A stretch of 64,000 nt of DNA from Maribacter vaceletii. Its GTDB lineage: Bacteria; Bacteroidota; Bacteroidia; Flavobacteriales; Flavobacteriaceae. Positions within the stretch are counted from its first letter, which is position 1; each line of letters begins with the position of its first letter. Below the pieces are notes generated by a model that saw only the letters and a program-made list of their open reading frames with translations, did no database searches and was not told the DNA's origin. The stretch covers positions 186,001 to 250,000 of the forward strand of contig NZ_RBIQ01000008.1 in assembly GCF_003634105.1 (NCBI RefSeq). The letters are read 5' to 3'. Shown piece by piece: positions 5,011 through 51,280 of the stretch. Both the position numbers and the translations under genes were made by a program.

Positions 5011-6789
5011 TTGAAAACACAAGACCTACTTAATCAAATGTTACGTTTAGAAAATACGTTAAACGAATTTTCATTTGAAGAATTAAATACTAAAGAGGCT
5101 ACAAAGCTTAAAAAATCTTTTTTATCTTTTAAAAATAACTTAGAAACTAAAATTTTTGGTTCATTAGTATCTGCACATGTAGAGGACCAATTTTTAGATG
5201 TTAGAGATATAAAACCAAATACTTCTAATAACACAGACTCAGACGCTAATAAATTAATAGCCAATGTTAGTCATGAAATTAGGACACCATTAAATGGTAT
5301 TATTGGATTTGCTGATTTACTTAAAGAAAGTAAACTAAAAGGAGAGCAATTAGAGCAAGTAAATGCAATACAATCTGCTTCTTATTCTTTAATGGAAATA
5401 ATTAATGAACTTTTAGAATACTCTAAACTCTCTGCAGGTTTAGAAGAATTTGAAAGTGTAGACTTTAGCTTTCATGATTTAGTAAAAGATGTAGTTTATT
5501 TATGCCAAACCTTGAGTGCAAATAAAAATATAACTATACATACTAAAATTGATGAAGCAATACCAGAAACATTAATAGGGGATCCTTCTAAATTATCTCA
5601 AATTTTATTGAACCTTATTGGAAATGCAATAAAGTTTGTTGAAAATGGAGAAATTAAGGTTACTATTAATTTAAAAGAGCTAAAAGATAAAAAAAGTTTT
5701 GTCCTAGAATTTAGTGTTCAAGATACTGGTATTGGTATGACTAAAGAACAACTAAACCATATTTTTGATTCTTTTAAGCAAGCTGAATATGATACGTTTA
5801 CTAAATATGGAGGAACTGGTCTTGGATTAAGTATTGTAAAACAAATTATAGAAAAACTTGGCGGAACCATTCATGTTACAAGTAAGGTAAATATTGGAAC
5901 CACTTTTAGTTTTATACTCCCATATAAAGAAGGAAACGACTCTAAGGTTCCAAAGAAAAATAAAAACACTATAAACTTACAGAAAGGAAGACAGCTGGTA
6001 AATGGTACTCGCGTTTTAGTTTTTGAAGATAACCTTTTAAACCAACGTTTAATTGAACAACGTTTAACAACTTGGGGTTGTAAAGTGTATATAACAGATA
6101 GTGCTACTTATGGAATAAATATTCTGAAAAACAAAAAAATTGATATTGTTCTTATGGATTTAAGAATGCCAAATATGAATGGTTTTCAAATAACGGAACT
6201 CATAAGAAGTCATAAAAAGAATTATATCAAAGCGGTGCCAATTATTGCTTTATCGGCAGATTTTAGTATCCGGGATCAAGAACAATGTGCGGAACATGGA
6301 ATTAATGACTTTATCTTAAAACCCTATGCACCAGACGATTTATTAATAAAACTTGTAAAAAATAAAACCAAAATGATAACTATAGAAAAAGAACCAAAAG
6401 AATTTATAGAAGTTAAAAAAGAACTAGTTTCTAATAAAGAAATAGATCTAACTCCTATATGGCAAGAGTGCATGGGACAAATAGAATTGTTAGAAGAATT
6501 ATTATCGTTATATAAAAAAAATGCACAAGAATTTATTACTGTTGTAAAAACGCAATTAAAAAACAACGCCTTTGAGGAGGTTGGTTTAGCTGCTCATAAA
6601 ATTAAAGCTGGTTTGGCCATGTTACAAACAGAAAGTTTGTTAGAAATTATTGTGCAAATACAAAATAGTTGTAAAGACAACGTAGATAAAAAGCACCTTG
6701 AGTTTTTATATGGTAGATTTTTAATAGAATACCCTATGGTAGAAAAAGAATTAGATGTTGCTTTCGTGAAAATTAAAAGCAATCAATAA
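5011..6789 (+). CDS. hybrid sensor histidine kinase with receiver and HPt domains
   Basis: This 592-residue protein has no predicted membrane segment, so it is a cytoplasmic sensor. Domains in order: a charged N-terminal helix (1-80); HisKA with the phospho-accepting His88 in NVSHEIRTPL; HATPase with the N box (LLNLIGNAIKF), the G1 box (DTGIGM) and GGTGLGLSI; a receiver domain with DD-like acidic residues (FEDN) and Asp383 in VLMDLRMP; and a C-terminal HPt domain with His529 in AAHKIKAGL. It therefore contains a complete internal His-Asp-His phosphorelay ready to hand phosphate to a separate receiver. The next gene encodes exactly that, 6 nt downstream. I use the TTG at 5011; ATG 5038 (MLRLENTLNEF) is an alternative. 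The signal sensed is unknown. Confidence 0.93.
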   Translation: MKTQDLLNQMLRLENTLNEFSFEELNTKEATKLKKSFLSFKNNLETKIFGSLVSAHVEDQFLDVRDIKPNTSNNTDSDANKLIANVSHEIRTPLNGIIGFADLLKESKLKGEQLEQVNAIQSASYSLMEIINELLEYSKLSAGLEEFESVDFSFHDLVKDVVYLCQTLSANKNITIHTKIDEAIPETLIGDPSKLSQILLNLIGNAIKFVENGEIKVTINLKELKDKKSFVLEFSVQDTGIGMTKEQLNHIFDSFKQAEYDTFTKYGGTGLGLSIVKQIIEKLGGTIHVTSKVNIGTTFSFILPYKEGNDSKVPKKNKNTINLQKGRQLVNGTRVLVFEDNLLNQRLIEQRLTTWGCKVYITDSATYGINILKNKKIDIVLMDLRMPNMNGFQITELIRSHKKNYIKAVPIIALSADFSIRDQEQCAEHGINDFILKPYAPDDLLIKLVKNKTKMITIEKEPKEFIEVKKELVSNKEIDLTPIWQECMGQIELLEELLSLYKKNAQEFITVVKTQLKNNAFEEVGLAAHKIKAGLAMLQTESLLEIIVQIQNSCKDNVDKKHLEFLYGRFLIEYPMVEKELDVAFVKIKSNQ

Positions 6790-6795
6790 TAAGGC

Positions 6796-7161
6796 ATGAA
6801 AAAAAAAATATTACTTGCAGATGATGATGAACTTTTAATTTCTTTACTACAATTTAGACTTAAAAAAGAAGGCCATGAGGTAACTTTTGTGTCTAATGGT
6901 AAACAAGTAAAAGAATATCTAAATAACACCATTCCAGATGTTATTGTTAGTGATATTATGATGCCTTATTTCTCTGGAATTGAGTTAGTTGATTTTGTAA
7001 GAAATGAACTAAAATTAACCATACCAATAATAATAATTTCTTCCGCTGGTAATGAAGAAAATGTATTAAGCGCTTTTGAGTTAGGCGCAAACGATTTTAT
7101 ATCAAAACCATTTAGTCCAACAGAATTATTATTAAGAATAACCAAAGAATTAACTAAGTAA
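6796..7161 (+). CDS. single-domain response regulator
   Basis: This is a stand-alone CheY-like receiver of 121 residues. The acidic pocket is LLADDDE (residues 5-11), the phospho-acceptor is Asp53 in VSDIMMP, the switch residue lies in IIISSAG, and Lys is in FISKPFSP. It has no output domain, so it must act by binding a partner protein. It lies 6 nt after the hybrid kinase with its HPt domain and 12 nt before the HEAT-repeat gene. The simplest reading is that phosphate flows from the HPt domain to this regulator, which then binds a component of the glycan machinery encoded downstream, perhaps the HEAT protein. That last step is inference. Confidence 0.93.
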   Translation: MKKKILLADDDELLISLLQFRLKKEGHEVTFVSNGKQVKEYLNNTIPDVIVSDIMMPYFSGIELVDFVRNELKLTIPIIIISSAGNEENVLSAFELGANDFISKPFSPTELLLRITKELTK

Positions 7162-7173
7162 AACAACCCCCAA

Positions 7174-9639
7174 TTGTTAAGTATTAATACGCATAACCCC
7201 CGAGCGTTAATTACTGCGCCTAAAATTCACACAGATCTACTCTGGGATTTATCCTTTTTGTTTGTGGGGTTAGCTTTGCTATACTTTTTATTTATCTTTT
7301 ACTTTAGGAACAAATTATCTGCCAAAACAAAAAAGGTAACACAAAAAAAGAAAGACCTTTCTCCAATTATTAGTGAGTTTCTTTTTTTTGAAGAGGAAAG
7401 TTCTAAAGATGAAAAAACCAATTACATTCAATTAAAAATTGAAATAAGACAATTTTTAAAAGACACGTTTAATAGAAGAATATTATCTGAAGTATTATTA
7501 GATTTAAGTATAGATGTTTCTGGGAGCACTCAAAAATCTCTTTTTAAATTATATAAAGAATTAGACTTACATAAAGATGCCTATGCAAAGTTAGAAAGTT
7601 GGCGTTGGGAAATTGTCTCTAAAGGAATTTTAGAATTAACACAAATGCAAGTTTCAGAATCTTATGGTTTTATTATAAAACGTATAAATGATAAAAGAGG
7701 AACCATTCGTAAACAAGCGGAAATTGCAACAGTTACTTTAAAACATGAAGGCATTTCTTATTTTTTAGATTCTACTAGATATAAAATATCAGAATGGCAG
7801 CAATTAAAAATATTAGAAGTATTACGTAATAAAAAAGATTTTAATCCACCTAAATTTAAACAATGGTTAACTTCTAATAATAAATATGTTGTTCTTTTTT
7901 CATTAAGATTAATTAAGCATTATAACCAGAATGACGCAGAACTTTCTATCATAGAGTTAGTAAAACACAAGAATACACAAATAAAGCAAGAAGCTATTTT
8001 ATGTATTAAAGAATTTGGTTTTATGAGCGCTACAGATACTTTAAAATTAATTTTTTGGAATAGCTCTACCGATATAAAAATAACAATACTAAGTGCCCTG
8101 TCTGAAATTGGAAAAGAAGAAGATTTGCCTTTCTTAAATCAAATAGAAAATAAGGAACGTAACTTTTATGTAAAAAGCAAAGCGTTAAGCACTATAAACA
8201 GTATTGCTCCTGAAACTATTATGCCAACTCAAGAAATTGAAAAAAATATAGCGCATAATACTCCTGATGATATTATTACCTCCGAAGAACAAGATAGTTT
8301 AATAGAAGAAATACCTGAGAATGTAGTTATTAAAGATGCAGAAAATCCAAAAGAACATATGGAAAACATAGAAGATGAAATACTAAACGATTCTATTCAT
8401 GAACTAAGACAGGAAGAATTGGCTTTAGCTGTAAATTCTAATGATGAAGAATTTTTAAATAGGGCTATTTCTGATAGTTTAGACTTTCTTCCAATAGTAA
8501 CTGACGATGAAAATAAGATGGTTACTAACCAAGATAGTAAGCCAAAAGTAAATCCAGAAGATATTATTGTTAATTTTCAAAAGGTTGTTCCAACTAAAAG
8601 TACTAATATACAAGTGGAGTATTCTATTGTAACGCCTAACATAACAAATGAAATTTCTTCTTTAAATTTAGATTTTCTACCAATTGTTACTACTAAAGTT
8701 ATAGAAGAAAAACCTGTAGAAATAAACCCTTTAAATTTAGAAGTAATAGGAGAAGAAATTAGTATTGAAAAAAAAGAAGTTTTAAATGTAGATTTCTTGC
8801 CTGTTATTTATGATGTAATTAAAGAAGACAAAGAACCCCTATCTACGGTAGATATTGATATTTTAAATATCAAAAATATTCCTACTATTTCTGAAGAAAT
8901 TAGTAGTTCTAAAGAATTGATTTCTAAAGAAGAAAACTCAGAAGATACTATACTAGACATTAATATAGAATTAAATAATGAAAATAAGATAACTACTAAT
9001 ACTATTGTAGAAGAAGAATTCTCCATTCCTAAGGCCATATTCTCTGATAAAAGAGAATTAGAAATGTTATCTCTTTTAGAGGATTTAAATGAATTAGGAG
9101 ATGTTAGAGAAATTCCATTACTAGAAGAATATTTAGTAAAAGAAAAAGATGGTATTATAAGAGACCGTATTATAGAACTTTTAGAAAAATTTTATAAAGA
9201 ATTATCTACTACTAAAAAAGAAATAAAAATGGATGATGTTACAACAGAGACTTCGATACTTGAAGAGCTTTTTGCAAATACAGATACAGAATCTAAGCTT
9301 ATTTTATTAAATGAAATAGTTGCTGTTAGCGATAAAAAAGAATTAAAATTATTAATGGATTTAGTGGATGATGAAGATGAAAGAGTTAGAGAAAAAGCAA
9401 AAAAATGCTTAAAACAATTAAAAGCACAAATTGAAGCTAAAAATAAAGCTAATTCGCTCGAACCAATTCCGTTAGAGTATGCTTTCCTTGAAGACTATAA
9501 AGCAGAATTACAAAAAAATAATATTAATCCTTCTAAAATAAGTAATCTAGATATAGAAGAAGTTTCTACCATAACTAAAGAGCCTTCTTTCTTAGAACAG
9601 TTTTATTCTTTTTCCAGTAAACTCTTTGATAAATTTTAA
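7174..9639 (+). CDS. membrane-anchored HEAT-repeat protein
   Basis: The 821-residue protein has an N-terminal transmembrane helix (about 23-46), then cytoplasmic alpha-helical HEAT-like repeats (about 130-360). A long acidic, probably disordered linker (about 360-635) precedes a second HEAT block (about 640-765) and a C-terminal amphipathic tail. In the linker the short motif DFLP[IV][VI] occurs three times, starting at residues 437, 500 and 540. HEAT repeats are protein-binding scaffolds, so the protein probably connects the response regulator to the glycosyltransferase. The start is a TTG at 7174; no ATG lies before the membrane segment. The stop overlaps the start of the glycosyltransferase gene by one base (TAATG), indicating tight coupling. 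No enzymatic motif is visible. Confidence 0.85.
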   Translation: MLSINTHNPRALITAPKIHTDLLWDLSFLFVGLALLYFLFIFYFRNKLSAKTKKVTQKKKDLSPIISEFLFFEEESSKDEKTNYIQLKIEIRQFLKDTFNRRILSEVLLDLSIDVSGSTQKSLFKLYKELDLHKDAYAKLESWRWEIVSKGILELTQMQVSESYGFIIKRINDKRGTIRKQAEIATVTLKHEGISYFLDSTRYKISEWQQLKILEVLRNKKDFNPPKFKQWLTSNNKYVVLFSLRLIKHYNQNDAELSIIELVKHKNTQIKQEAILCIKEFGFMSATDTLKLIFWNSSTDIKITILSALSEIGKEEDLPFLNQIENKERNFYVKSKALSTINSIAPETIMPTQEIEKNIAHNTPDDIITSEEQDSLIEEIPENVVIKDAENPKEHMENIEDEILNDSIHELRQEELALAVNSNDEEFLNRAISDSLDFLPIVTDDENKMVTNQDSKPKVNPEDIIVNFQKVVPTKSTNIQVEYSIVTPNITNEISSLNLDFLPIVTTKVIEEKPVEINPLNLEVIGEEISIEKKEVLNVDFLPVIYDVIKEDKEPLSTVDIDILNIKNIPTISEEISSSKELISKEENSEDTILDINIELNNENKITTNTIVEEEFSIPKAIFSDKRELEMLSLLEDLNELGDVREIPLLEEYLVKEKDGIIRDRIIELLEKFYKELSTTKKEIKMDDVTTETSILEELFANTDTESKLILLNEIVAVSDKKELKLLMDLVDDEDERVREKAKKCLKQLKAQIEAKNKANSLEPIPLEYAFLEDYKAELQKNNINPSKISNLDIEEVSTITKEPSFLEQFYSFSSKLFDKF

Positions 9640-11069
9640 TGGATAGCGGTTTTTTCAATATTATTTTAGAATATATAAACATTGTTTTTTTCTTGTTTAC
9701 AGTTATTCTATTCTCATTTTTTACCGCAATGGGGTATTTATCTACCCGAAACACCATACACTACAAGAACAAAAATAGTTTTGGAGACATGTCAAAATTA
9801 ATGGCTTCTCCATTAGCACCAAGTATAACAATAATTGCTCCTGCCTATAATGAGGGAATGACAATTGTAGAAAATATTAGGTCTCTAATGTCATTAAAAT
9901 ATGTTAACTACGAGGTTATGGTGGTTAATGATGGAAGTAAAGATGATACGCTTCAAAAAATGATTGATGCTTATGACTTAGTAAAAATAGACCAAGAAAT
10001 AGACCCAAATTGGAAATCTAAACCTATTAGAGGCATTTATAAATCACCTCAAAGAGCATTTTCTAAATTAACTGTAATAGATAAAGAAAATGGCGGTAAG
10101 TCCGATGCTTTAAATACAGGCATGGCGTTATCTAAAAACAAGTATGTTGGCTGTATAGATGTAGATTGCCTTTTATTACCAGATGCATTATTACATGTTG
10201 TAAAATCTTTTTACCAACGTTCTGAAAAACGTGTTATTGCTGTTGGTGGGGTAATACGTGTCGCAAATTCTTGTGTTATACAAGGCGGACAGTTAGAAGA
10301 AATTAAATTACCAACAAATTGGTTGGCAAGGTTTCAATTATTAGAATATACACGTTCATTTATTTTAGGCAGAATGGCGTGGGGAAGAATAGATAGTTTA
10401 CTAATTATTTCTGGGGCATTTGGTTTTTTTGATAGAGAAATAGCATTAGCAGTAGATGGTTATGATACGAATACGGTAGGGGAAGACATGGAAATTGTTT
10501 TTAAGATGCGTAAGTACATGCACGAACGTAAAATACCATATACTGTAGAATACATACCAGACCCCTTATGCTGGACCGAAGTTCCAGAAGACTTAAAAAT
10601 ACTTGTAAACCAAAGAGATAGGTGGGCAAGAGGTAATTTAGAAACACTTTTTAAGCATAAAGAAATGTTCTTTAATCCCAAATTTGGAAAACTAGGTATG
10701 CTTAGTTATCCATATTGGTTTTTTTACGAATGGCTAGCTCCAATGCTAGAGTTTTTTGGAATGTTTACTATTATCCTTTTTTATTATTTAGGAATATTAA
10801 ACTGGGATTTCTTTATTGCAATTACCACTACGGTTTACGTTTTCTCTATCATGTTTTCTTTTTATGCTATCCTTTGGGATGTATATGCATATAATGAGTA
10901 TAAAAGAACAAAAGACATACTAATTCTTATGTTCTGTGCAATTATAGAACCTATTACTTTTCATCCAATAGTAGTATGGGCAGCAATACGTGGAAATTAT
11001 AAAAAACTGTTTAAAATTAAATCTGGCTGGGGATCTCAAGTTCGTAAAGGATTTGCAAAAGCCTCCTAA
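9639..11069 (+). CDS. processive-type family 2 glycosyltransferase (PgaC/BcsA-like)
   Basis: The 476-residue inner-membrane enzyme has one N-terminal membrane helix (about 8-32) and three or so C-terminal helices (about 350-415), with a GT-A domain between them. All hallmarks of processive GT2 synthases are present: NDGS at 97-100, DVD at 174-176, GED at 281-283, and QRDRW at 325-329 (the Q/RxxRW motif). Such enzymes polymerise a nucleotide sugar and thread the polymer through their own membrane channel, as in poly-GlcNAc, hyaluronan or cellulose synthesis. The sugar cannot be predicted. The neighbours (an outer-membrane TPR-barrel and a two-component pair) resemble the logic of the Pga system without PgaB or PgaD. 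Confidence 0.92.
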   Translation: MDSGFFNIILEYINIVFFLFTVILFSFFTAMGYLSTRNTIHYKNKNSFGDMSKLMASPLAPSITIIAPAYNEGMTIVENIRSLMSLKYVNYEVMVVNDGSKDDTLQKMIDAYDLVKIDQEIDPNWKSKPIRGIYKSPQRAFSKLTVIDKENGGKSDALNTGMALSKNKYVGCIDVDCLLLPDALLHVVKSFYQRSEKRVIAVGGVIRVANSCVIQGGQLEEIKLPTNWLARFQLLEYTRSFILGRMAWGRIDSLLIISGAFGFFDREIALAVDGYDTNTVGEDMEIVFKMRKYMHERKIPYTVEYIPDPLCWTEVPEDLKILVNQRDRWARGNLETLFKHKEMFFNPKFGKLGMLSYPYWFFYEWLAPMLEFFGMFTIILFYYLGILNWDFFIAITTTVYVFSIMFSFYAILWDVYAYNEYKRTKDILILMFCAIIEPITFHPIVVWAAIRGNYKKLFKIKSGWGSQVRKGFAKAS

Positions 11070-11071
11070 TA

Positions 11072-13420
11072 ATGCAAGTAGAAAAAAACATATCAAAAAA
11101 GGGTGCGCCAAAAAAGTTAAAGGACTTTATTCCAATGCTATTAACTTTCTTTGTGGCTCTTTTTGTGCTTTCTATCTATCAAAATCTAAGTCTGTATTTA
11201 AGTGGTGTTATAGATAGTGTTTTTAATAAAAGCTTTTTTCATTTGCTCCTTAACCATACAGGGTATGTAGCAATTACAGCATTAATCTTATCGTTCTTAT
11301 TTAATTATTTAGAAAATAAAAAAGCTGGCTTAGGTTATAGAGTAACCAGAATAATCTTACTACTTCTTATTGGTATAGAAGCTTTATTAATACAATATTA
11401 CATTCAGAATTATGAAATATTAGGAACAGGTATTCTTGGTATTTTTAAATCGGATACGGTAATTTATTCTTTACTACCAGTTATTGGTCTTTTACTTATT
11501 TGTTTTGCAATTTGTTATTATGTGCAAAAATTTACTGCAAAAACATATACGATTATTAGTAGAATGTATCCTGTTACGCTAATTTTATTTAGTTTGTTTT
11601 TAGCTACTTTATATGCTGATAAAAAACCAATTAATGAAAATAAAACACACCATTTAATTTCTAGTTTAAAGAATTATGTATTAGAAAATAACACGTATGA
11701 AGGAACAGCGGAATATCCACTTTTAAAAGACTATACAAAAGAAGATGTTTTATCCACCTATTTTAATATAAAAGAAGAAAAGCCAAATATATTATTTTTA
11801 GTCGTAGAAGGTTTAGGGTCCAATTTTATTGGGGATAAACCAGACTATAAAGGTTTTACACCATATTTGCAAGAGTTAACTAAAAAAGGGCTTTTTTGGG
11901 AAAACCATTTAAGTAATAGTGGAGAAAGTTTTGCTGCCATACCAAATATACTTGGGTCTTTACCTTTTGGACAAGAGGGCTTTACCAATTTAGATACTTA
12001 TACTAATAGAAATACTTTATACAGTATTCTTAAAAAAAATGGCTATGCTACTTCTTTTAATTATGGTGGTAATAGTGCTCTTAATTATATAGATAAGTTT
12101 TTAGATGAAGAACGTGTAGACCGTATTATAGATAAAAAAGTATTTAATGAAACTTATAGTTTACAAGAAAAAGATGCTGCCGGAATTTCTTTAGGATACC
12201 CAGATGCAGAATTATTTAAAAAATTTAACACTTCATTTTTTAGTACAAAAAAACCTAGGTTAGATTTTTTTGTAACACTTAGCACTAAAAATCCGTATGC
12301 TATTCCTAATGCAGAAAAGTATTTGCAAACGGTAGAAAAACAATTAGAGAATAAAAATCGATATACTAAAAGAGTCAGAAAAATAATTTCAAATAATAAA
12401 GAGCTATTTGCTAGTTTATTATATACAGATGGTGCTGTAAAATCGTTTATAGAAAATTATAAAACAAAACCAGAATATAAGAATACAATATTCATTATTA
12501 CGGGCACGCACAATAGTACCGATGTGCCACAAACTACTAATTTACAAAAGTATAAAGTGCCATTAATACTAATTAGCCCACTTTTAAAAACAACTAAAAA
12601 AATAAAATCGCTTACTTCACATGCAGATATTACACCTTCTTTAATTTCTTTTTTAGATGCTAATTATTCGTTAAAAGTACCAGCAAAAAATGCTTGGTTA
12701 GGAGATAATTTAGTACATAAAAATACATTTAAAATAGGTAAAGAAATACCTTTATTTAAAAGGAGAAATGCTATAGTAGATTATATAAGTGGTTCTAATT
12801 TTATTAGTAAGGGCAAAGTATATAAGTTGTATAAAGATTTAGACCTTTTAGAAGAAGAGGATTCTAGTAATAAAGACGCTATAAAAGAGAGGTTTCGTTA
12901 TTTTAAATCGGTGAATAAATATGTTACTGCCACTAATAAAATAATTCCTGAAGATTTATCTCTCTATGTAACAAAAACAAAAGAGTTTTCTAAACAAGAC
13001 CTAATTTGGGTAGAGAGTGTTTTTAATGATAAGGATTTTGATAATGCTTATGAAACTGCTCGTGAACTAGCTTTTAATAAAGAATGGGACCGCTCTTTAT
13101 TACTATGTAATTATATACTATCTAAAATACCAAGACATGCAGATACTGAAATTCTTGTTGGGAGAGTTTATGCATGGAAAAAAGAGTACAAAAATTCTAT
13201 TCAAGCGCTAGAAGAAGTTATTCGTAAATACCCAACCTATGAAGATGGTTATGCTGCTTTATTAGATGTATACTATTGGTCTAACAATAATGATAGAGTA
13301 CCAGAGATTCAAGAAATAATACAAGAAAACAATATTAGTTCTAAAGAAATAGCAGTTAAACTTTTAAGAGCAAATACCATACTGTCTAAAAATAAAGAAG
13401 TAGCAGAAATCAATTTTTAA
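11072..13420 (+). CDS. LTA-synthase-like (alkaline phosphatase superfamily) membrane protein with C-terminal TPR domain
   Basis: The 782-residue protein starts with five membrane helices (about 19-40, 58-80, 92-112, 130-152 and 165-182), followed by an extracytoplasmic sulfatase/LTA-synthase domain (about 237-550) and TPR-like helices (about 650-770). The first metal ligand looks conserved (Glu246 in VVEGLGS), and the nucleophile region is NSGESF (Ser283 or Ser286 where LTA synthases use Thr). The second metal site, normally a GDH-type motif, reads TGTH (477-480), with Asp replaced by Thr479. Family members transfer phosphoglycerol or phosphoethanolamine onto glycans, so a decorating role on the polymer made by the neighbouring GT2 is plausible, if the protein is still active. 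The stop overlaps the next start by one base. Confidence 0.82.
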   Translation: MQVEKNISKKGAPKKLKDFIPMLLTFFVALFVLSIYQNLSLYLSGVIDSVFNKSFFHLLLNHTGYVAITALILSFLFNYLENKKAGLGYRVTRIILLLLIGIEALLIQYYIQNYEILGTGILGIFKSDTVIYSLLPVIGLLLICFAICYYVQKFTAKTYTIISRMYPVTLILFSLFLATLYADKKPINENKTHHLISSLKNYVLENNTYEGTAEYPLLKDYTKEDVLSTYFNIKEEKPNILFLVVEGLGSNFIGDKPDYKGFTPYLQELTKKGLFWENHLSNSGESFAAIPNILGSLPFGQEGFTNLDTYTNRNTLYSILKKNGYATSFNYGGNSALNYIDKFLDEERVDRIIDKKVFNETYSLQEKDAAGISLGYPDAELFKKFNTSFFSTKKPRLDFFVTLSTKNPYAIPNAEKYLQTVEKQLENKNRYTKRVRKIISNNKELFASLLYTDGAVKSFIENYKTKPEYKNTIFIITGTHNSTDVPQTTNLQKYKVPLILISPLLKTTKKIKSLTSHADITPSLISFLDANYSLKVPAKNAWLGDNLVHKNTFKIGKEIPLFKRRNAIVDYISGSNFISKGKVYKLYKDLDLLEEEDSSNKDAIKERFRYFKSVNKYVTATNKIIPEDLSLYVTKTKEFSKQDLIWVESVFNDKDFDNAYETARELAFNKEWDRSLLLCNYILSKIPRHADTEILVGRVYAWKKEYKNSIQALEEVIRKYPTYEDGYAALLDVYYWSNNNDRVPEIQEIIQENNISSKEIAVKLLRANTILSKNKEVAEINF

Positions 13421-14646
13421 TGCAAGTACTAAAAACATACATTCTTATCCTATTTTGCTTTTGCAGTTTATTTATTGCTGCACAAGAGAAGGTTACGTAT
13501 TCTGGGGATCCAGACTCCTCTTTTTTTACTGCTAGGGAATTAGCTTTTGCAGGGAATAGAATTGCTGCTAGAGATACGCTTACTACGATTTTAAGTGCAT
13601 ACCCAGAATATACAGATGTTCGTGTTCTATTAGCAAAAACCCATACCTGGGATAAAGAATACGAAAGCGCAAGAAAACACTTTAATACTATAACTTCTAA
13701 AGAAAAGGAAATTAAAGAAGTTTGGGTAGCCGCTATTAATAATGAGTTGTATTCTGAAAATTATGCTACAGCTTTAGGTTTAGCAAATAAGGCTTTAAAA
13801 TATATTCCAAACGATGAGGATTTAGCAAAACAAAAACAATATGCAATAAACGGTATAACTGGTGTTACTGAAGAAGGGCAAGAATCTGAAATAGATACTA
13901 CTACAACTTCTTTAAAAAATCAATTTGGATTAACCAATAGCTTTGAGATTTTTGATGTTGTTTATGATCCTATGTTTTATTCTAGTATAGAGTATAAAAG
14001 AGAAACTCTTGCTGGACCTATTATTCCAAGAATAAATTATAGCAATAGGTTTGGTACTCACGGTTTACAATATGAACTAGATTTTTACCCTAAACTTTCT
14101 AAAAAAATTTACGGGTATTTAAATTATGGTTTTTCTAATGCACCAACTTTTCCTAAACATAGGGCAGGAGTAGAGGTATATGCTAATTACCCAAAAAATA
14201 TGGAACTTTCCTTAGGACTACGTTATTTAGACTTTAAATCTATAAAAGCAACTATTGCTACTGCAAGTGTTGGTTTATACTCTGGAAACTATTTCTTTTC
14301 TGCTAGACCTTATGTAACGACTATAAGCGATAATAATCTTGGATTTTCTGGAACTGTATTGGCTAGAAAATATTTAAGAGATAAGGATAATTATTTAGGT
14401 GTTATTGCTGGAGTTGGGTATGCATCAGAATTAAAACAATTACGAAACGCACAAGATGCTTTATTAGCAGAAACCGTATTGTATGTAGAATCGCAACAAG
14501 TACTTTTTGAATATCAATTTACAGGAAAAAAGAATCCTAATATTTATAAAACCAACTTAGGAGTAACACGGCAGGAGCTTATTTTTGAGCCAGGAAAATT
14601 CTTTTGGTCCGTGTCTGCAGGGATAACCTACCAGGTGAAATTCTAA
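13420..14646 (+). CDS. YaiO-type outer-membrane beta-barrel with N-terminal TPR domain
   Basis: The 408-residue protein begins with a signal peptide (residues 1-21, LFIAAQ cleavage region). A periplasmic TPR-like helical segment (about 32-145) follows, then about 230 residues of alternating strands rich in Tyr, Asn and Gly that end in SAGITYQVKF, a typical barrel C terminus with terminal Phe. The layout corresponds to YaiO-family outer-membrane proteins and is functionally reminiscent of PgaA (TPR plus barrel), the exporter of poly-GlcNAc. It is the last large gene of the operon. Its TPR segment shares the exact block TARELAF (37-43) with the TPR tail of the preceding protein. It probably forms the outer-membrane exit for the polymer. 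Confidence 0.85.
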   Translation: MQVLKTYILILFCFCSLFIAAQEKVTYSGDPDSSFFTARELAFAGNRIAARDTLTTILSAYPEYTDVRVLLAKTHTWDKEYESARKHFNTITSKEKEIKEVWVAAINNELYSENYATALGLANKALKYIPNDEDLAKQKQYAINGITGVTEEGQESEIDTTTTSLKNQFGLTNSFEIFDVVYDPMFYSSIEYKRETLAGPIIPRINYSNRFGTHGLQYELDFYPKLSKKIYGYLNYGFSNAPTFPKHRAGVEVYANYPKNMELSLGLRYLDFKSIKATIATASVGLYSGNYFFSARPYVTTISDNNLGFSGTVLARKYLRDKDNYLGVIAGVGYASELKQLRNAQDALLAETVLYVESQQVLFEYQFTGKKNPNIYKTNLGVTRQELIFEPGKFFWSVSAGITYQVKF

Positions 14647-14856: not shown

Positions 14857-14955
14857 ATGCTTTATGATACCTACGGAGAAGAGTATTTAGCTTTCCTTCA
14901 AGATTTAAATGAAATATTAAGTATTAACGAATTGGTAGAATTAGACTTTATGTAG
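14857..14955 (+). CDS. micro-ORF A (32 residues), first of a tandem pair
   Basis: The ORF encodes 32 residues and contains EYLAFLQDLNEILSINEL. The next micro-ORF has the matching YLNFIQNLNEILVDYNINKL, so the two are related peptides in tandem. Each is preceded by the same 13-base leader TTAATTAAACCTA (14837-14849 here). No membrane segment and no Cys; acidic and amphipathic. It lies about 210 nt after the YaiO-type gene. I see no known family. Confidence 0.5.
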   Translation: MLYDTYGEEYLAFLQDLNEILSINELVELDFM

Positions 14956-14998: not shown

Positions 14999-15100
14999 AT
15001 GGCAAACAAGAATCAAGACAACACATCGTATTTAAATTTTATTCAGAATTTAAATGAAATTCTAGTAGATTATAATATTAATAAACTTACCTACTCTTAA
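14999..15100 (+). CDS. micro-ORF B (33 residues), second of a tandem pair
   Basis: The ORF encodes 33 residues, beginning MANKNQDNTS and sharing the pattern YLxFhQsLNEIL with micro-ORF A. The leader TTAATTAAACCTA recurs at 14959-14971, starting 4 nt after the stop of micro-ORF A. The bidirectional terminator at 15124 follows 24 nt after the stop, consistent with an expressed unit ending here. Confidence 0.5.
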   Translation: MANKNQDNTSYLNFIQNLNEILVDYNINKLTYS

Positions 15101-16857: not shown

Positions 16858-18369
16858 TTGGAGTATAAAAAGCATACAAAAGAGAAAAATCTCTACGATT
16901 ATCAAATAGAAGATTTAAATACCATTTTTGAGCATTTAAAGAATTCTAAGGATAACGAAAACCTGCTTTACCAATTACCTACGGGTGGCGGTAAAACCGT
17001 TGTATTTTCAGAAATTACCAAAAGGTACATTAATGAAATTAAGAAGAAAGTAGTAGTTCTTACCCATAGAATAGAACTTAGCGTACAAACTTCTTCTATG
17101 TTAGATGGGTTTGGGGTTAAGAACAAAATTATTAACAGCGAGGTTAAAGAGGTCATGGACCAAGACAATATAAGTTGTTATGTTGCTATGGTAGAAACCT
17201 TAAATAATCGCTTACAGGAAGAGAAAGTAAAAATTAGTAATATTGGCTTGGTTATTATAGATGAAGCCCACTACAATTCTTTCCGTAAATTATTTAAGTA
17301 TTTTGATGATGCTATCATATTAGGAGTTACTGCTACACCATTAAGTTCTAATATAAAGTTACCAATGAAAGATAACTACAGTAAACTTATTGTAGGTGAG
17401 TCTATATCTTCCTTAATTTCTAAAAACTTCCTGGCAAAAGCAAATGTTTATAATTACGATGTTAGTCTACAAAACTTAAAACTTGGTATTAATGGCGACT
17501 ATACAGTAAAATCTTCGGATGAATTATATGGGAATCAAAGCATGCTTACCAAGCTTTTAAATGGCTATACAGAGGTTGCTAAAGGTACTAAAACGCTTAT
17601 TTTTAATAATGGTATTAATACCTCTATTTATGTGTATGAAACCTTTAAAAAGGCAGGGTATAATATTAGACACTTAGATAATAAGAATAATGCCACGGAG
17701 CGTAAAGAAATACTAGAATGGTTTTCTAAAACACCAGATGCTATTTTAACATCGGTAAGTATCTTAACCACTGGTTTTGATGAACCTACGGTAGAAACTA
17801 TAATGCTAAATAGAGCCACTAGGTCGCTTACTTTGTATTTTCAAATGATAGGGCGTGGTTCTCGTGTATTGCCCAATAAGAAAGAGTTTACGGTAATAGA
17901 TTTTGGGAACAATGTTGCTCGTTTTGGTATGTGGAGTGCACCTATAGATTGGCAAGAGATATTTCATTTTCCAGATTTCTTTTTGGAAAATATTAAGAAC
18001 GATGAGGATATAGAAAGAGAATTTGTCTACGAAATGCCAAAATCTATAAAAGCAATGTTCTCCAAATCTAAAAATATAGAGTTTGATATTAAGGAAGAAT
18101 ACAAAAAAGTATTTGCTCAAGGCCTTAAATCTAAAATAGTATTAGAAAAAAGTATAGAACAACACGCTACTATTTGTGTTGAAAATGCAGAAGATGTTTT
18201 TGACGCTAGAATACTCGCCAAGCAACTAAAGGAAGAAATTAGTTTTAGAGTAAAACAATACTCATATTGTATTATGAACAATACAAAAAACTACAAAGAA
18301 TGGTTAGAGGAAGATTATGAGCGCAAGCTACGTTCAAATATTTCTAAAAAGTTTGCCGCAAAAATGTAA
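16858..18369 (+). CDS. DEAD/DEAH-box superfamily 2 helicase, copy 1
   Basis: The 503-residue helicase has Walker A LPTGGGKT (about 39-46), a DEAH box in VIIDEAHYNSF, motif III VTATP, motif V SILTTGFDEPT and motif VI QMIGRGSR. The overall order is that of the ResIII/Helicase_C family (RadD-like architecture) without any nuclease or methylase domain. The C-terminal ~130 residues are helical and charged. I use the TTG at 16858 (MEYKKHTKEK); no ATG is better placed. The GT1 gene follows after 6 nt. A close paralogue is at 49718-51280. A role in nucleic-acid repair or RNA processing is possible; nothing in the context decides it. Confidence 0.9.
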   Translation: MEYKKHTKEKNLYDYQIEDLNTIFEHLKNSKDNENLLYQLPTGGGKTVVFSEITKRYINEIKKKVVVLTHRIELSVQTSSMLDGFGVKNKIINSEVKEVMDQDNISCYVAMVETLNNRLQEEKVKISNIGLVIIDEAHYNSFRKLFKYFDDAIILGVTATPLSSNIKLPMKDNYSKLIVGESISSLISKNFLAKANVYNYDVSLQNLKLGINGDYTVKSSDELYGNQSMLTKLLNGYTEVAKGTKTLIFNNGINTSIYVYETFKKAGYNIRHLDNKNNATERKEILEWFSKTPDAILTSVSILTTGFDEPTVETIMLNRATRSLTLYFQMIGRGSRVLPNKKEFTVIDFGNNVARFGMWSAPIDWQEIFHFPDFFLENIKNDEDIEREFVYEMPKSIKAMFSKSKNIEFDIKEEYKKVFAQGLKSKIVLEKSIEQHATICVENAEDVFDARILAKQLKEEISFRVKQYSYCIMNNTKNYKEWLEEDYERKLRSNISKKFAAKM

Positions 18370-49672: not shown

Positions 49673-49705
49673 TTGGGCAAAACCCTATAAAAGGCCGTAA
49701 TTTTG
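49673..49705 (+). promoter_or_regulatory. Bacteroidota promoter of the second helicase gene
   Basis: TTG at 49673-49675 and the perfect -7 box TAATTTTG at 49698-49705 are separated by 22 nt. The box overlaps the TTG that begins the longest frame, so translation must start downstream (ATG 49718 or 49727). Confidence 0.6.
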
Positions 49706-49717
49706 CAGTCCCGAGAA

Positions 49718-51280
49718 ATGAAAGGTATGGCAAACTTATCACACGAAGTACAAGAAAAAAAGACAGATAAAGAACTTTATAGCTATCAGAAAGGAGCAAT
49801 AGACCAAGTTTTTGAAAAATTTGATAGTGCTCCCGATGATTACCATCTTCTTTACCAGCTACCAACAGGTGGAGGTAAAACAGTAATATTTTCAGAACTG
49901 GTTAGGCAATACTTAAAAAACCACAATAAGAAGGTTTTAGTAATGACACACCGTGTAGAACTTTGTAACCAAACCTCTAAAATGCTTACGAGCTTTGGGG
50001 TGGTAAACAAAGTGGTTAATAGTACTGCTAACCTTGAGGACCAGGACGAATACGTTTGTTTTGTGGCAATGGTTGAAACTTTAAATAACAGGTTAAATGA
50101 TGATATGTTAGATATATCAGACGTTGGATTGGTTATTATTGATGAAGCCCACTATAACTCGTTTAATAAATTATTTAAGTTCTTTAATAATTCTTTTATA
50201 CTTGGTGTTACAGCAACACCACTAAGTTCTAACAAGAACTTACCAATGAAAGATAATTATGATGAGTTAATTGCAGGAGAGAGTATTGGTTCGCTTATAG
50301 AAAATGAGTTTTTAGCAAAAGCAGAAGTTTTTCAGTATGATATGGGACTTACTTCTTTAGAAGTTGGTTCTAATGGAGATTATACCGTTAAATCCTCTGA
50401 AGATTTATATTCTAGCCCTGCCATGTTAGAAAAGCTTTTAGATGCCTATAAGAAGCACTCTAAAGGTAAAAAAACACTTATTTTTAATAATGGTATTAAT
50501 ACCTCTATACATGTGTATCATACTTTTGATGCTGCAGGTATACCGGTAAGGCATTTAGATAATACCGCTACTAAAAAACAACGAAAAGAAATTCTTAATT
50601 GGTTTAAAGAAACACCAGATGCTGTATTAACATCGGTTAGTATTTTAACTACTGGTTTTGATGAACCTACTATAGATACTATTATATTAAATAGAGCAAC
50701 AAAATCACTTACTCTATATTACCAAATGATTGGTCGTGGTTCTCGTATTTTAAATAACAAATCTACTTTTAAGGTTATTGATTTAGGAAATAACTATTAC
50801 AGATTTGGACCATGGGGAGCAGATTTAGATTGGCAAACTATATTTAATAATCCTAATTTCTACATGGATAGATTGCAGGATGATGATGATATTGAAGCTA
50901 ATTTTAGACATGAAATGTCTGAAGAGGTTAGAGCAGAATTTCCTAAATCTAAAGAGGTTTATTTTGATATAAAAGCAACCTATATTAGTGCAACTTCTAA
51001 TGGAGAGTCCTCTAAAGTTGTTTTAGAGCGTTCTATTGCACAACACGCATATATTTGTATAGAAAACAGTGAAGATGTTTATGATGCTTTAGGCTTAGCT
51101 AAATTACTTGCAGAAGATATAAACAATAGAATACAAACCTATGCTAAATGTATAAGCAGAAGTACTTTTAATTTTTTACATTGGTTAAAAGACGATTATA
51201 AAAAGAAATTAAATGCTTATTTAAGAGCAAATTTTGATACGGTCTTTGAAGATATTCATGGTTACCCACCAGAAGATTAA
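49718..51280 (+). CDS. DEAD/DEAH-box superfamily 2 helicase, copy 2
   Basis: The 520-residue helicase is a paralogue of the gene at 16858. It has Walker A LPTGGGKT, DEAH in VIIDEAHYNSF, VTATP, KTLIFNNGINTSIHVYHTF, SILTTGFDEPT and QMIGRGSR in the same order and spacing. The Bacteroidota -7 box at 49698-49705 excludes a start at the earlier TTG, leaving ATG 49718 or ATG 49727. The C-terminal region diverges most between the copies. No partner gene is adjacent. It is closed by a strong terminator. Confidence 0.9.
   Translation: MKGMANLSHEVQEKKTDKELYSYQKGAIDQVFEKFDSAPDDYHLLYQLPTGGGKTVIFSELVRQYLKNHNKKVLVMTHRVELCNQTSKMLTSFGVVNKVVNSTANLEDQDEYVCFVAMVETLNNRLNDDMLDISDVGLVIIDEAHYNSFNKLFKFFNNSFILGVTATPLSSNKNLPMKDNYDELIAGESIGSLIENEFLAKAEVFQYDMGLTSLEVGSNGDYTVKSSEDLYSSPAMLEKLLDAYKKHSKGKKTLIFNNGINTSIHVYHTFDAAGIPVRHLDNTATKKQRKEILNWFKETPDAVLTSVSILTTGFDEPTIDTIILNRATKSLTLYYQMIGRGSRILNNKSTFKVIDLGNNYYRFGPWGADLDWQTIFNNPNFYMDRLQDDDDIEANFRHEMSEEVRAEFPKSKEVYFDIKATYISATSNGESSKVVLERSIAQHAYICIENSEDVYDALGLAKLLAEDINNRIQTYAKCISRSTFNFLHWLKDDYKKKLNAYLRANFDTVFEDIHGYPPED

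Follow-up and report, generated by a model that had tools for sequence, protein, structure and literature searches.

Described systems and the locus analysed

The well-studied synthase-dependent exopolysaccharide systems are switched mainly by cyclic di-GMP (c-di-GMP), and OpgH-type synthases have a partner with the lipoteichoic acid (LTA) synthase fold. In phosphoethanolamine (pEtN) cellulose, as set out in PMC11379886, a synthase is combined with a membrane-anchored periplasmic transferase held near it and with an exporter made of tetratricopeptide repeats (TPR) and an outer-membrane barrel. Here we analyse a stretch of 64,000 nucleotides from Maribacter vaceletii (contig NZ_RBIQ01000008.1, positions 186,001 to 250,000 of the forward strand; hereafter the window), in which the six genes listed below place a glycosyltransferase family 2 (GT2) synthase between phosphorelay and HEAT-repeat genes on one side and genes for an LTA-synthase-like protein and a YaiO-type barrel on the other. 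A conserved operon of this kind, with synthase, putative exporter, phosphorelay genes and HEAT gene, proved to be widespread in the loci surveyed. The earlier note on this DNA had named a gene order confined to this strain as a result that would refute its proposal, and the survey showed otherwise.

5011..6789, + strand, hybrid histidine kinase (HisKA, HATPase_c, receiver and histidine phosphotransfer (Hpt) domains), from a domain scan
6796..7161, + strand, stand-alone receiver (CheY-like response regulator), from a domain scan
7174..9639, + strand, membrane-anchored HEAT-repeat protein, from a domain scan (HEAT_2) and hydrophobicity
9639..11069, + strand, GT2 polysaccharide synthase, from a domain scan and motif
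11072..13420, + strand, LTA-synthase-like protein, whole open reading frame (ORF), from a PF00884 domain, with TPR below cut-off
13420..14646, + strand, TPR_19 and PF19413 YaiO protein with signal peptide, TPR and outer-membrane barrel, from a domain scan and a model

The earlier note had described six genes in one direction with gaps of -1 to 12 nt at 5011-14646, and all of them were found there on the + strand, with stop-to-start gaps of 6, 12, -1, 2 and -1 nt in order; the kinase start codon (TTG, 5011) is uncertain. The claimed domain order was likewise seen in the scans, the Hpt domain and the TPR of the fifth gene scoring below threshold. A membrane GT2 lies beside an outer-membrane TPR/barrel gene, which is the general mark of synthase-dependent exopolysaccharide loci.

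Distribution and gene order

With the window GT2 as query (E ≤ 1e-40), a homologue was found in 58 of 199 genomes of the family: 30 carry a close copy (73-100% identity) and 28 only divergent copies (34-52%). Genomes with a close copy are called class A below, the split being one that we set on identity. In the phylum, the GT2 profile (A1) matched 94 of 395 genomes at E ≤ 1e-90. Among the best 80 of 423 relatives, the named loci include Maribacter, Kriegella, Pareuzebyella, Eudoraea, Flavobacterium, Chryseobacterium, Empedobacter, Sphingobacterium, Pedobacter, Chitinophaga, Algoriphagus and two metagenome-assembled genomes of Neomarinimicrobiota. A plasmid search with the barrel gave two weak matches.

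Apart from the window, 29 class A neighbourhoods (L063-L091) were compared, and 25 of them have all six genes in the same order; gaps are mostly of a few bases. As regards the four exceptions, the receiver was not found in L064, no kinase matched in L090, and L075 and L091 have no LTA-synthase-like gene between GT2 and YaiO. The 25 include five with a short or split kinase (L065, L066, L071, L072 and L074) and two whose LTA-synthase-like gene is without the catalytic domain (L079 and L088). Since order and tight spacing are repeated in kin, the six-gene array is not a product of chance, and the idea that it is unique to this strain was rejected, GT2 homologues being spread over family and phylum and the six-gene order being kept in close kin.

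A survey of all classes covered 127 distinct loci of 139, after removal of four duplicates and of eight loci with fewer than three ORFs on one side. Every one of the 127 has the HEAT gene immediately before GT2, in the same orientation. No more than four ORFs from GT2, 113 loci have a single-domain receiver (in 87 loci the receiver directly precedes HEAT) and 116 have a YaiO barrel; of 499 ORFs lying more than six places away, none scored as a single-domain receiver, HEAT or YaiO protein. A modification domain was present in 71 loci, nine of them with the domain fused to GT2, and a kinase in 64. The receiver follows the barrel gene in some loci, and in several Flavobacterium loci YaiO stands between receiver and HEAT. 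In ten further phylum loci, several of which were chosen for odd ORF sizes, HEAT was upstream in seven. The most constant part overall is HEAT plus GT2 and not the six-gene set proposed earlier as a unit, the modification domain, the kinase and the gene order being variable.

The synthase

Residues D174, D176, E282, D283, Q325, R326, R328 and W329 of GT2 are invariant in 28 aligned rows, and from its motif we take the enzyme to be of the processive type; that it makes a polymer, and does so processively, is a prediction. Synonymous distance was usable in three pairs (window/L063, L092/L093 and, for the most part, L099/L103), for which GT2, the slowest-evolving protein of the operon, gave dN/dS of 0.010, 0.010 and 0.017; L087/L101 and L068/L096 were saturated. 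For L090/L102, near saturation, dN/dS was 0.041 for GT2, 0.070 for the catalytic domain of the LTA-synthase-like protein and 0.051 for its TPR, and the HEAT comparison of this pair was ignored, as non-matching ORFs had been picked. Natural fusions of GT2 with the LTA-synthase-like domain occur in L054, L117, L119, L120, L124, L126, L131, L138 and L141, the nine whose catalytic residues are scored below, and also in L213, L214 and L215.

A degenerate LTA-synthase-like protein

The fifth gene encodes three parts:

11072..11716, + strand, N-terminal membrane region with five hydrophobic segments, from a model and hydrophobicity
11744..12766, + strand, PF00884-fold domain with a degenerate site (E285 for Arg; T479 for the metal-ligand Asp), from alignment and structures
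12989..13396, + strand, C-terminal TPR region resembling the TPR of the YaiO gene, from profiles and a model

The AlphaFold2 model is confident (mean pLDDT 85.8, pTM 0.81), and its closest solved folds in Foldseek are the LtaS-type structures 2w8d (E 9.2e-17, TM-score 0.71 by target length), 3lxq, 4uoo and 2w5r, so that the fold is that of LtaS. To judge the catalytic site, 78 domains were aligned and compared with LtaS-type structures, ligand and nucleophile positions being assigned as in LtaS, and a site was scored as intact if it had the acidic ligand, a Ser/Thr nucleophile and the Asp-His ligand pair. The set in the window is incomplete: E246, S286 and H480 are kept, the metal-ligand Asp has become T479 and the Arg before the nucleophile E285.

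Outside class A, all 40 modification domains examined are intact, including nine GT2 fusions. The class A alignment holds 15 intact and 23 degenerate rows, the window among the latter, or 14 and 22 distinct ones, as two species were entered twice (L071/L097 and L081/L100); in some of the 23 degenerate rows the nucleophile position carries L, I, N, P or G. Counted by genome, the 30 members of class A comprise 17 with a degenerate domain, nine with an intact one, two in which the domain is deleted and two without such a gene between GT2 and YaiO. The deletions (L079, L088) leave the transmembrane and TPR parts in place, and the absences (L075, L091) refer to that interval, to which the search was limited.

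Despite the degeneracy, the catalytic domain is under purifying selection, with dN/dS of 0.124 for window/L063 and 0.060 for L092/L093; the TPR is tighter in these degenerate pairs (0.065 and 0.019), and the intact pair L099/L103 shows the reverse (catalytic domain 0.044, TPR 0.062). The pattern fits a protein kept for its shape and not for its chemistry, three pairs being a small sample. In quick trees, the intact clade is nested inside the degenerate ones when the other operon proteins are used (two changes between intact and not intact), stands apart with the catalytic domain (one change), and requires two changes with the transmembrane and TPR parts. Grouping the 24 class A rows that are not intact was not rejected (p-AU 0.479); this constraint takes in L079 and L088 (domain deleted) and L091 (gene absent), and leaves out L064 and L075.

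Altogether, the window protein is probably catalytically dead, judging from its residues, although it may retain residual activity. The earlier suggestion that it modifies the glycan was not supported for this organism, given its degenerate site and the lack of the domain in the operons of some kin; an active modifier was on these grounds rejected as the default.

Phosphorelay, HEAT protein and barrel

The H, D, H, D set of phospho-acceptors is complete in the window: H88, D383 and H529 in the kinase and D53 in the receiver. The Hpt domain scored 22.8 bits against a cut-off of 24.6, with its His present, and D53 is conserved in at least 93% of 52 rows. In the window and 19 loci that we listed, all with kinases longer than 500 aa, all 20 kinases retain the receiver Asp and the Hpt His, and 19 retain the first His, the exception being L089. 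Neither a hydrophobic segment nor a recognised sensor domain was detected in the window kinase by hydrophobicity and domain scan. In one genome (G050, locus L205), the same spot between a thioesterase gene and rpoD is without the five genes that run from receiver to barrel, and the kinase left there (7436-9208) is a full-length ORF of 591 aa in which all three acceptors (first His, receiver Asp, Hpt His) have been replaced. This loss of acceptors where the partner genes are missing argues that the relay is tied to the operon.

No GGDEF match was found in the whole genome (99.81% complete), whereas 8 of 14 control genomes gave matches, and no PilZ match was found in the six proteins by domain scan. 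The GGDEF result makes the case for control without c-di-GMP stronger than it was in the earlier note.

The HEAT protein consists of an N-terminal HEAT domain, a long variable linker and a C-terminal HEAT region. In the window, its single hydrophobic segment lies near the N-terminus (residues 26-44) and has K/R after it; such a segment is present in 124 of the 127 loci, and K/R residues are more numerous on its C-terminal side in 118 of the 124, which places the HEAT part in the cytoplasm. Outside a short repeated motif, the linker evolves fast. The copies in the window are:

8482..8499, + strand, linker motif copy 1, DFLPIV, HEAT residues 437-442, from comparison with kin and enrichment
8671..8688, + strand, linker motif copy 2, DFLPIV, HEAT residues 500-505, from comparison with kin
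8791..8808, + strand, linker motif copy 3, DFLPVI, HEAT residues 540-545, from comparison with kin

The pattern [DN][FYI][LI]P[ILVF][VIT] occurs 43 times over 39 class A linkers and at least once in 29 of them, with a mean of 0.085 copies and a maximum of 2 in 200 shuffles; its core was taken from the window, which contributes 3 of the 43 copies, and its last two positions were fixed after the kin had been seen. The repeated motif may be a docking site.

The sixth protein belongs to the YaiO family (PF19413, 218.1 bits against a cut-off of 23.9; TIGR04390, 190.3 against 32), and its single hydrophobic segment is N-terminal, as expected of a signal peptide. The model (mean pLDDT 87.8, pTM 0.56) has seven TPR-type helices after an N-terminal helix and 14 strands (residues 168-407). 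Ranked by Foldseek E-value, the two lowest of 50 listed matches are BcsC of E. coli, the third is 4y25 ('Bacterial polysaccharide outer membrane secretin', which we take to be PgaA), the sixth PelB and the 46th AlgE. The model supports a barrel with TPR, not an exporter as such. The TPR regions of this protein and of the LTA-synthase-like protein match each other's profiles, which suggests one TPR on each membrane.

Proposed mechanism and alternative explanations

The reading that we favour, tentatively and with a likelihood just short of even, is that of a polysaccharide system gated by a phosphorelay through the HEAT protein, with export through the TPR barrel and with the modifier reduced to a pseudoenzyme linker in the lineage of the window. 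The GT2 synthase would polymerise sugar and extrude the chain through the inner membrane, and the TPR-bearing YaiO barrel would carry it through the outer one. Phosphate would pass from kinase H88 to receiver D383, Hpt H529 and finally D53 of the stand-alone receiver, which, having no output domain, most likely acts by protein contact, its partner being the membrane-anchored HEAT protein. The latter would gate or position the synthase, a job done by c-di-GMP in the Bcs, Pga, Alg and Pel systems. In most Bacteroidota with the system, the enzyme with the LTA-synthase fold, sometimes fused to the synthase, probably adds a phospho-group to the chain, while in the lineage of the window the pseudoenzyme most likely serves as a membrane-to-periplasm linker whose TPR faces that of the barrel protein. 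This reading is built on the gene content and its conservation, the fusions, the lost catalytic residues and domains, the lack of GGDEF matches and the kinase decay seen in one genome; the phosphotransfer route, the contact between receiver and HEAT, the gate, the polymer, its export and the role of the pseudoenzyme are inferred from them. A broader version, in which a phosphorylated CheY-like receiver acting through a near-constant HEAT adaptor replaces c-di-GMP as the allosteric switch of the synthase across the phylum, with DFLPIV docking and a dead TPR bridge in Maribacter-like bacteria, appears doubtful; in that clade, the repeated DFLPIV-type motifs could gather several receivers or synthases.

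Several observations weigh against the favoured reading. HEAT was undetectable upstream of GT2 in three of the ten further phylum loci (L209, L211, L212), and the HEAT-GT2 pair stands without YaiO within four ORFs in 11 of the 127 loci and without the receiver in 14. GT2 scores below the cut-off of every NCBIfam model listed (25 of 26 shown). In the barrel, TM-scores are low, 0.24-0.33 for BcsC, which has 16 strands against 14 in the model, and the best listed ones belong to ordinary E. coli porins (2x9k, 0.41/0.57; OmpG, 2wvp, 0.39/0.57). E246, Ser286 and H480 remain in the LTA-synthase-like protein. The argument from kinase decay is based on G050, a single genome, and G057, with no GT2 match at E ≤ 1e-40, has a kinase that keeps the first His and the receiver Asp. 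The latter kinase is 40% identical to that of the window, carries a PAS domain and lies at another place, and it may be a paralogue. The porin scores and the G057 kinase weaken the favoured reading and raise the likelihood of a product that stays in the envelope.

Such a product, a periplasmic glucan or a glycolipid made in an OpgH/OpgB-like manner while the barrel serves another purpose, would have a precedent in the LTA-synthase-fold partner of OpgH-type synthases; it would also suit the 11 loci without a nearby YaiO gene and a 14-strand barrel model as porin-like as it is secretin-like. We nevertheless hold it to be quite improbable, because YaiO lies near the synthase in 116 of 127 loci, even between receiver and HEAT in several Flavobacterium loci, and because BcsC gives the two lowest Foldseek E-values. 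It is improbable to a lesser degree that the relay bypasses HEAT and GT2, the receiver signalling elsewhere (transcription, gliding) and being merely co-transcribed: the receiver is absent or more than four ORFs away in 14 loci and follows the barrel gene in some, but it stands directly upstream of HEAT in 87, and in G050 receiver and glycan genes are missing together from beside a kinase without acceptors. Very unlikely, in our judgement, is an active transferase modifying the glycan in this organism too. The fold, the three kept residues, the purifying selection on the catalytic domain and the intact sites of 40 out of 40 proteins outside the clade speak for it; Thr479 in place of the metal-ligand Asp and Glu285 in place of the conserved Arg speak against it, as do the L, I, N, P or G at the nucleophile position of some degenerate rows, the deletion of the domain in L079 and L088, and the absence of the gene between GT2 and YaiO in L075 and L091.

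The operon makes it testable how bacteria without a GGDEF match switch a polysaccharide synthase, since the receiver, HEAT and synthase genes are adjacent and lend themselves to joint expression. Within the clade there is also a natural series, in which the modification domain is intact, degenerate, deleted or absent, synthase-transferase fusions occur, and a kinase is without phospho-acceptors where the operon is missing. As HEAT-flanked relatives of the synthase are found in Flavobacterium, Chryseobacterium, Pedobacter, Sphingobacterium and others, the annotation of many genomes would profit from a single case studied in full.

Microproteins and other neighbouring genes

Downstream of the operon, rpoD lies no more than one ORF from the barrel gene in 28 of 29 class A neighbourhoods, and two short paralogous ORFs with the common core YLxFhxxLNEIL are located between the barrel gene and rpoD:

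14857..14955, + strand, microprotein P1, 32 aa, conserved beside the operon, from comparison with kin
14999..15100, + strand, microprotein P2, 33 aa, paralogue of P1, from comparison with kin

All 30 class A genomes in the family sample have both, with pN/pS of 0.096 and 0.243 at synonymous sites near saturation, and neither Pfam (at E 0.1) nor NCBIfam (at E 1) yielded a match to them. Outside class A, the 199 genomes yielded matches in G050, G057 and G077, a weak one in G021 and a probable chance match in G052; the fair count is that of profile A4, since the seed of A5 contains rows of G057, G077 and G021, which thus match by construction. P1 matched 5 of 296 phylum genomes, all five within the family. 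The microproteins may be members of the operon system; they are also unaltered in G050 despite the missing glycan genes and the decayed kinase, and so may have another purpose. As a raw observation, an AAACC-type element occurs within about 15 nt before the start of many of 24 microprotein genes from the window and kin, ahead of both P1 and P2.

Elsewhere in the window, at 16858-18369 and 49703-51280, there are two similar ORFs with the motif LPTGGGKTV(V/I)FSE, by which we judge them to be presumably helicase-like.

Comparison with known systems

No description of this operon type was found in the open-licence literature, mostly judged by listings, and the earlier note knew of no described system with this gene set; among the matches listed for YaiO, no title concerned a Bacteroidota polysaccharide system. 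By the tests run, the parts encoded here fall outside the Bcs and Pga families.

With the Pga/Ica systems the operon shares a TPR-barrel gene, here for a putative exporter, and PgaC_IcaA is the best-scoring NCBIfam model for the window GT2, but at 143.2 bits against a cut-off of 422.3. No deacetylase of the PgaB/IcaB type is present among the six genes, to which the search was limited, and no GGDEF match occurs in the M. vaceletii genome. The E. coli yaiO-yaiX-yaiP-yaiS locus resembles the operon in that its YaiO barrel gene has modification genes and yaiP, for a putative glucosyltransferase, close to it, and the pairing of YaiO with a glycosyltransferase is therefore wider than the present system. 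However, yaiO of E. coli, at 774 bp compared with 1227 bp for the gene in the window, could not encode a TPR region and a barrel as large as those of the latter, an acyltransferase fragment and a putative deacetylase stand where the window has the LtaS-type protein, and no HEAT or phosphorelay gene lies in the stretch shown. On the product of that locus, nothing pertinent appeared in the open-licence literature searched, going by listings.

YejM/PbgA/LapC is a membrane protein of the same fold, found among the fold matches (6xlp, 6v8q) and used for control or binding. To our knowledge it has no TPR; the window protein scores 28 against its NCBIfam cut-off of 825, and the genomic context differs. 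From LtaS and OpgB the window protein differs in its missing metal-ligand Asp and its added TPR region at the C-terminus, and it scores 30.8 bits against 572 for the OpgB-type model; in those homologues from the rest of the phylum that were examined, the catalytic residues are complete.

The Bcs systems differ in their parts: the window GT2 reaches 32.1 bits where the CelA model requires 699.1, no PilZ match was obtained in the six proteins, no BcsB or cellulase is present in the array, and the Bcs exporter has 19 TPRs and 16 strands against few TPRs and a 14-strand model here, BcsC giving the lowest Foldseek E-value at the low TM-scores mentioned above. Nevertheless, Bcs type II, which makes the phosphoethanolamine cellulose of E. 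coli with BcsA, BcsG and BcsC, follows the same plan of synthase, membrane transferase and TPR-barrel, to which the window array adds the HEAT protein and the phosphorelay, its own LtaS-type domain being degenerate.

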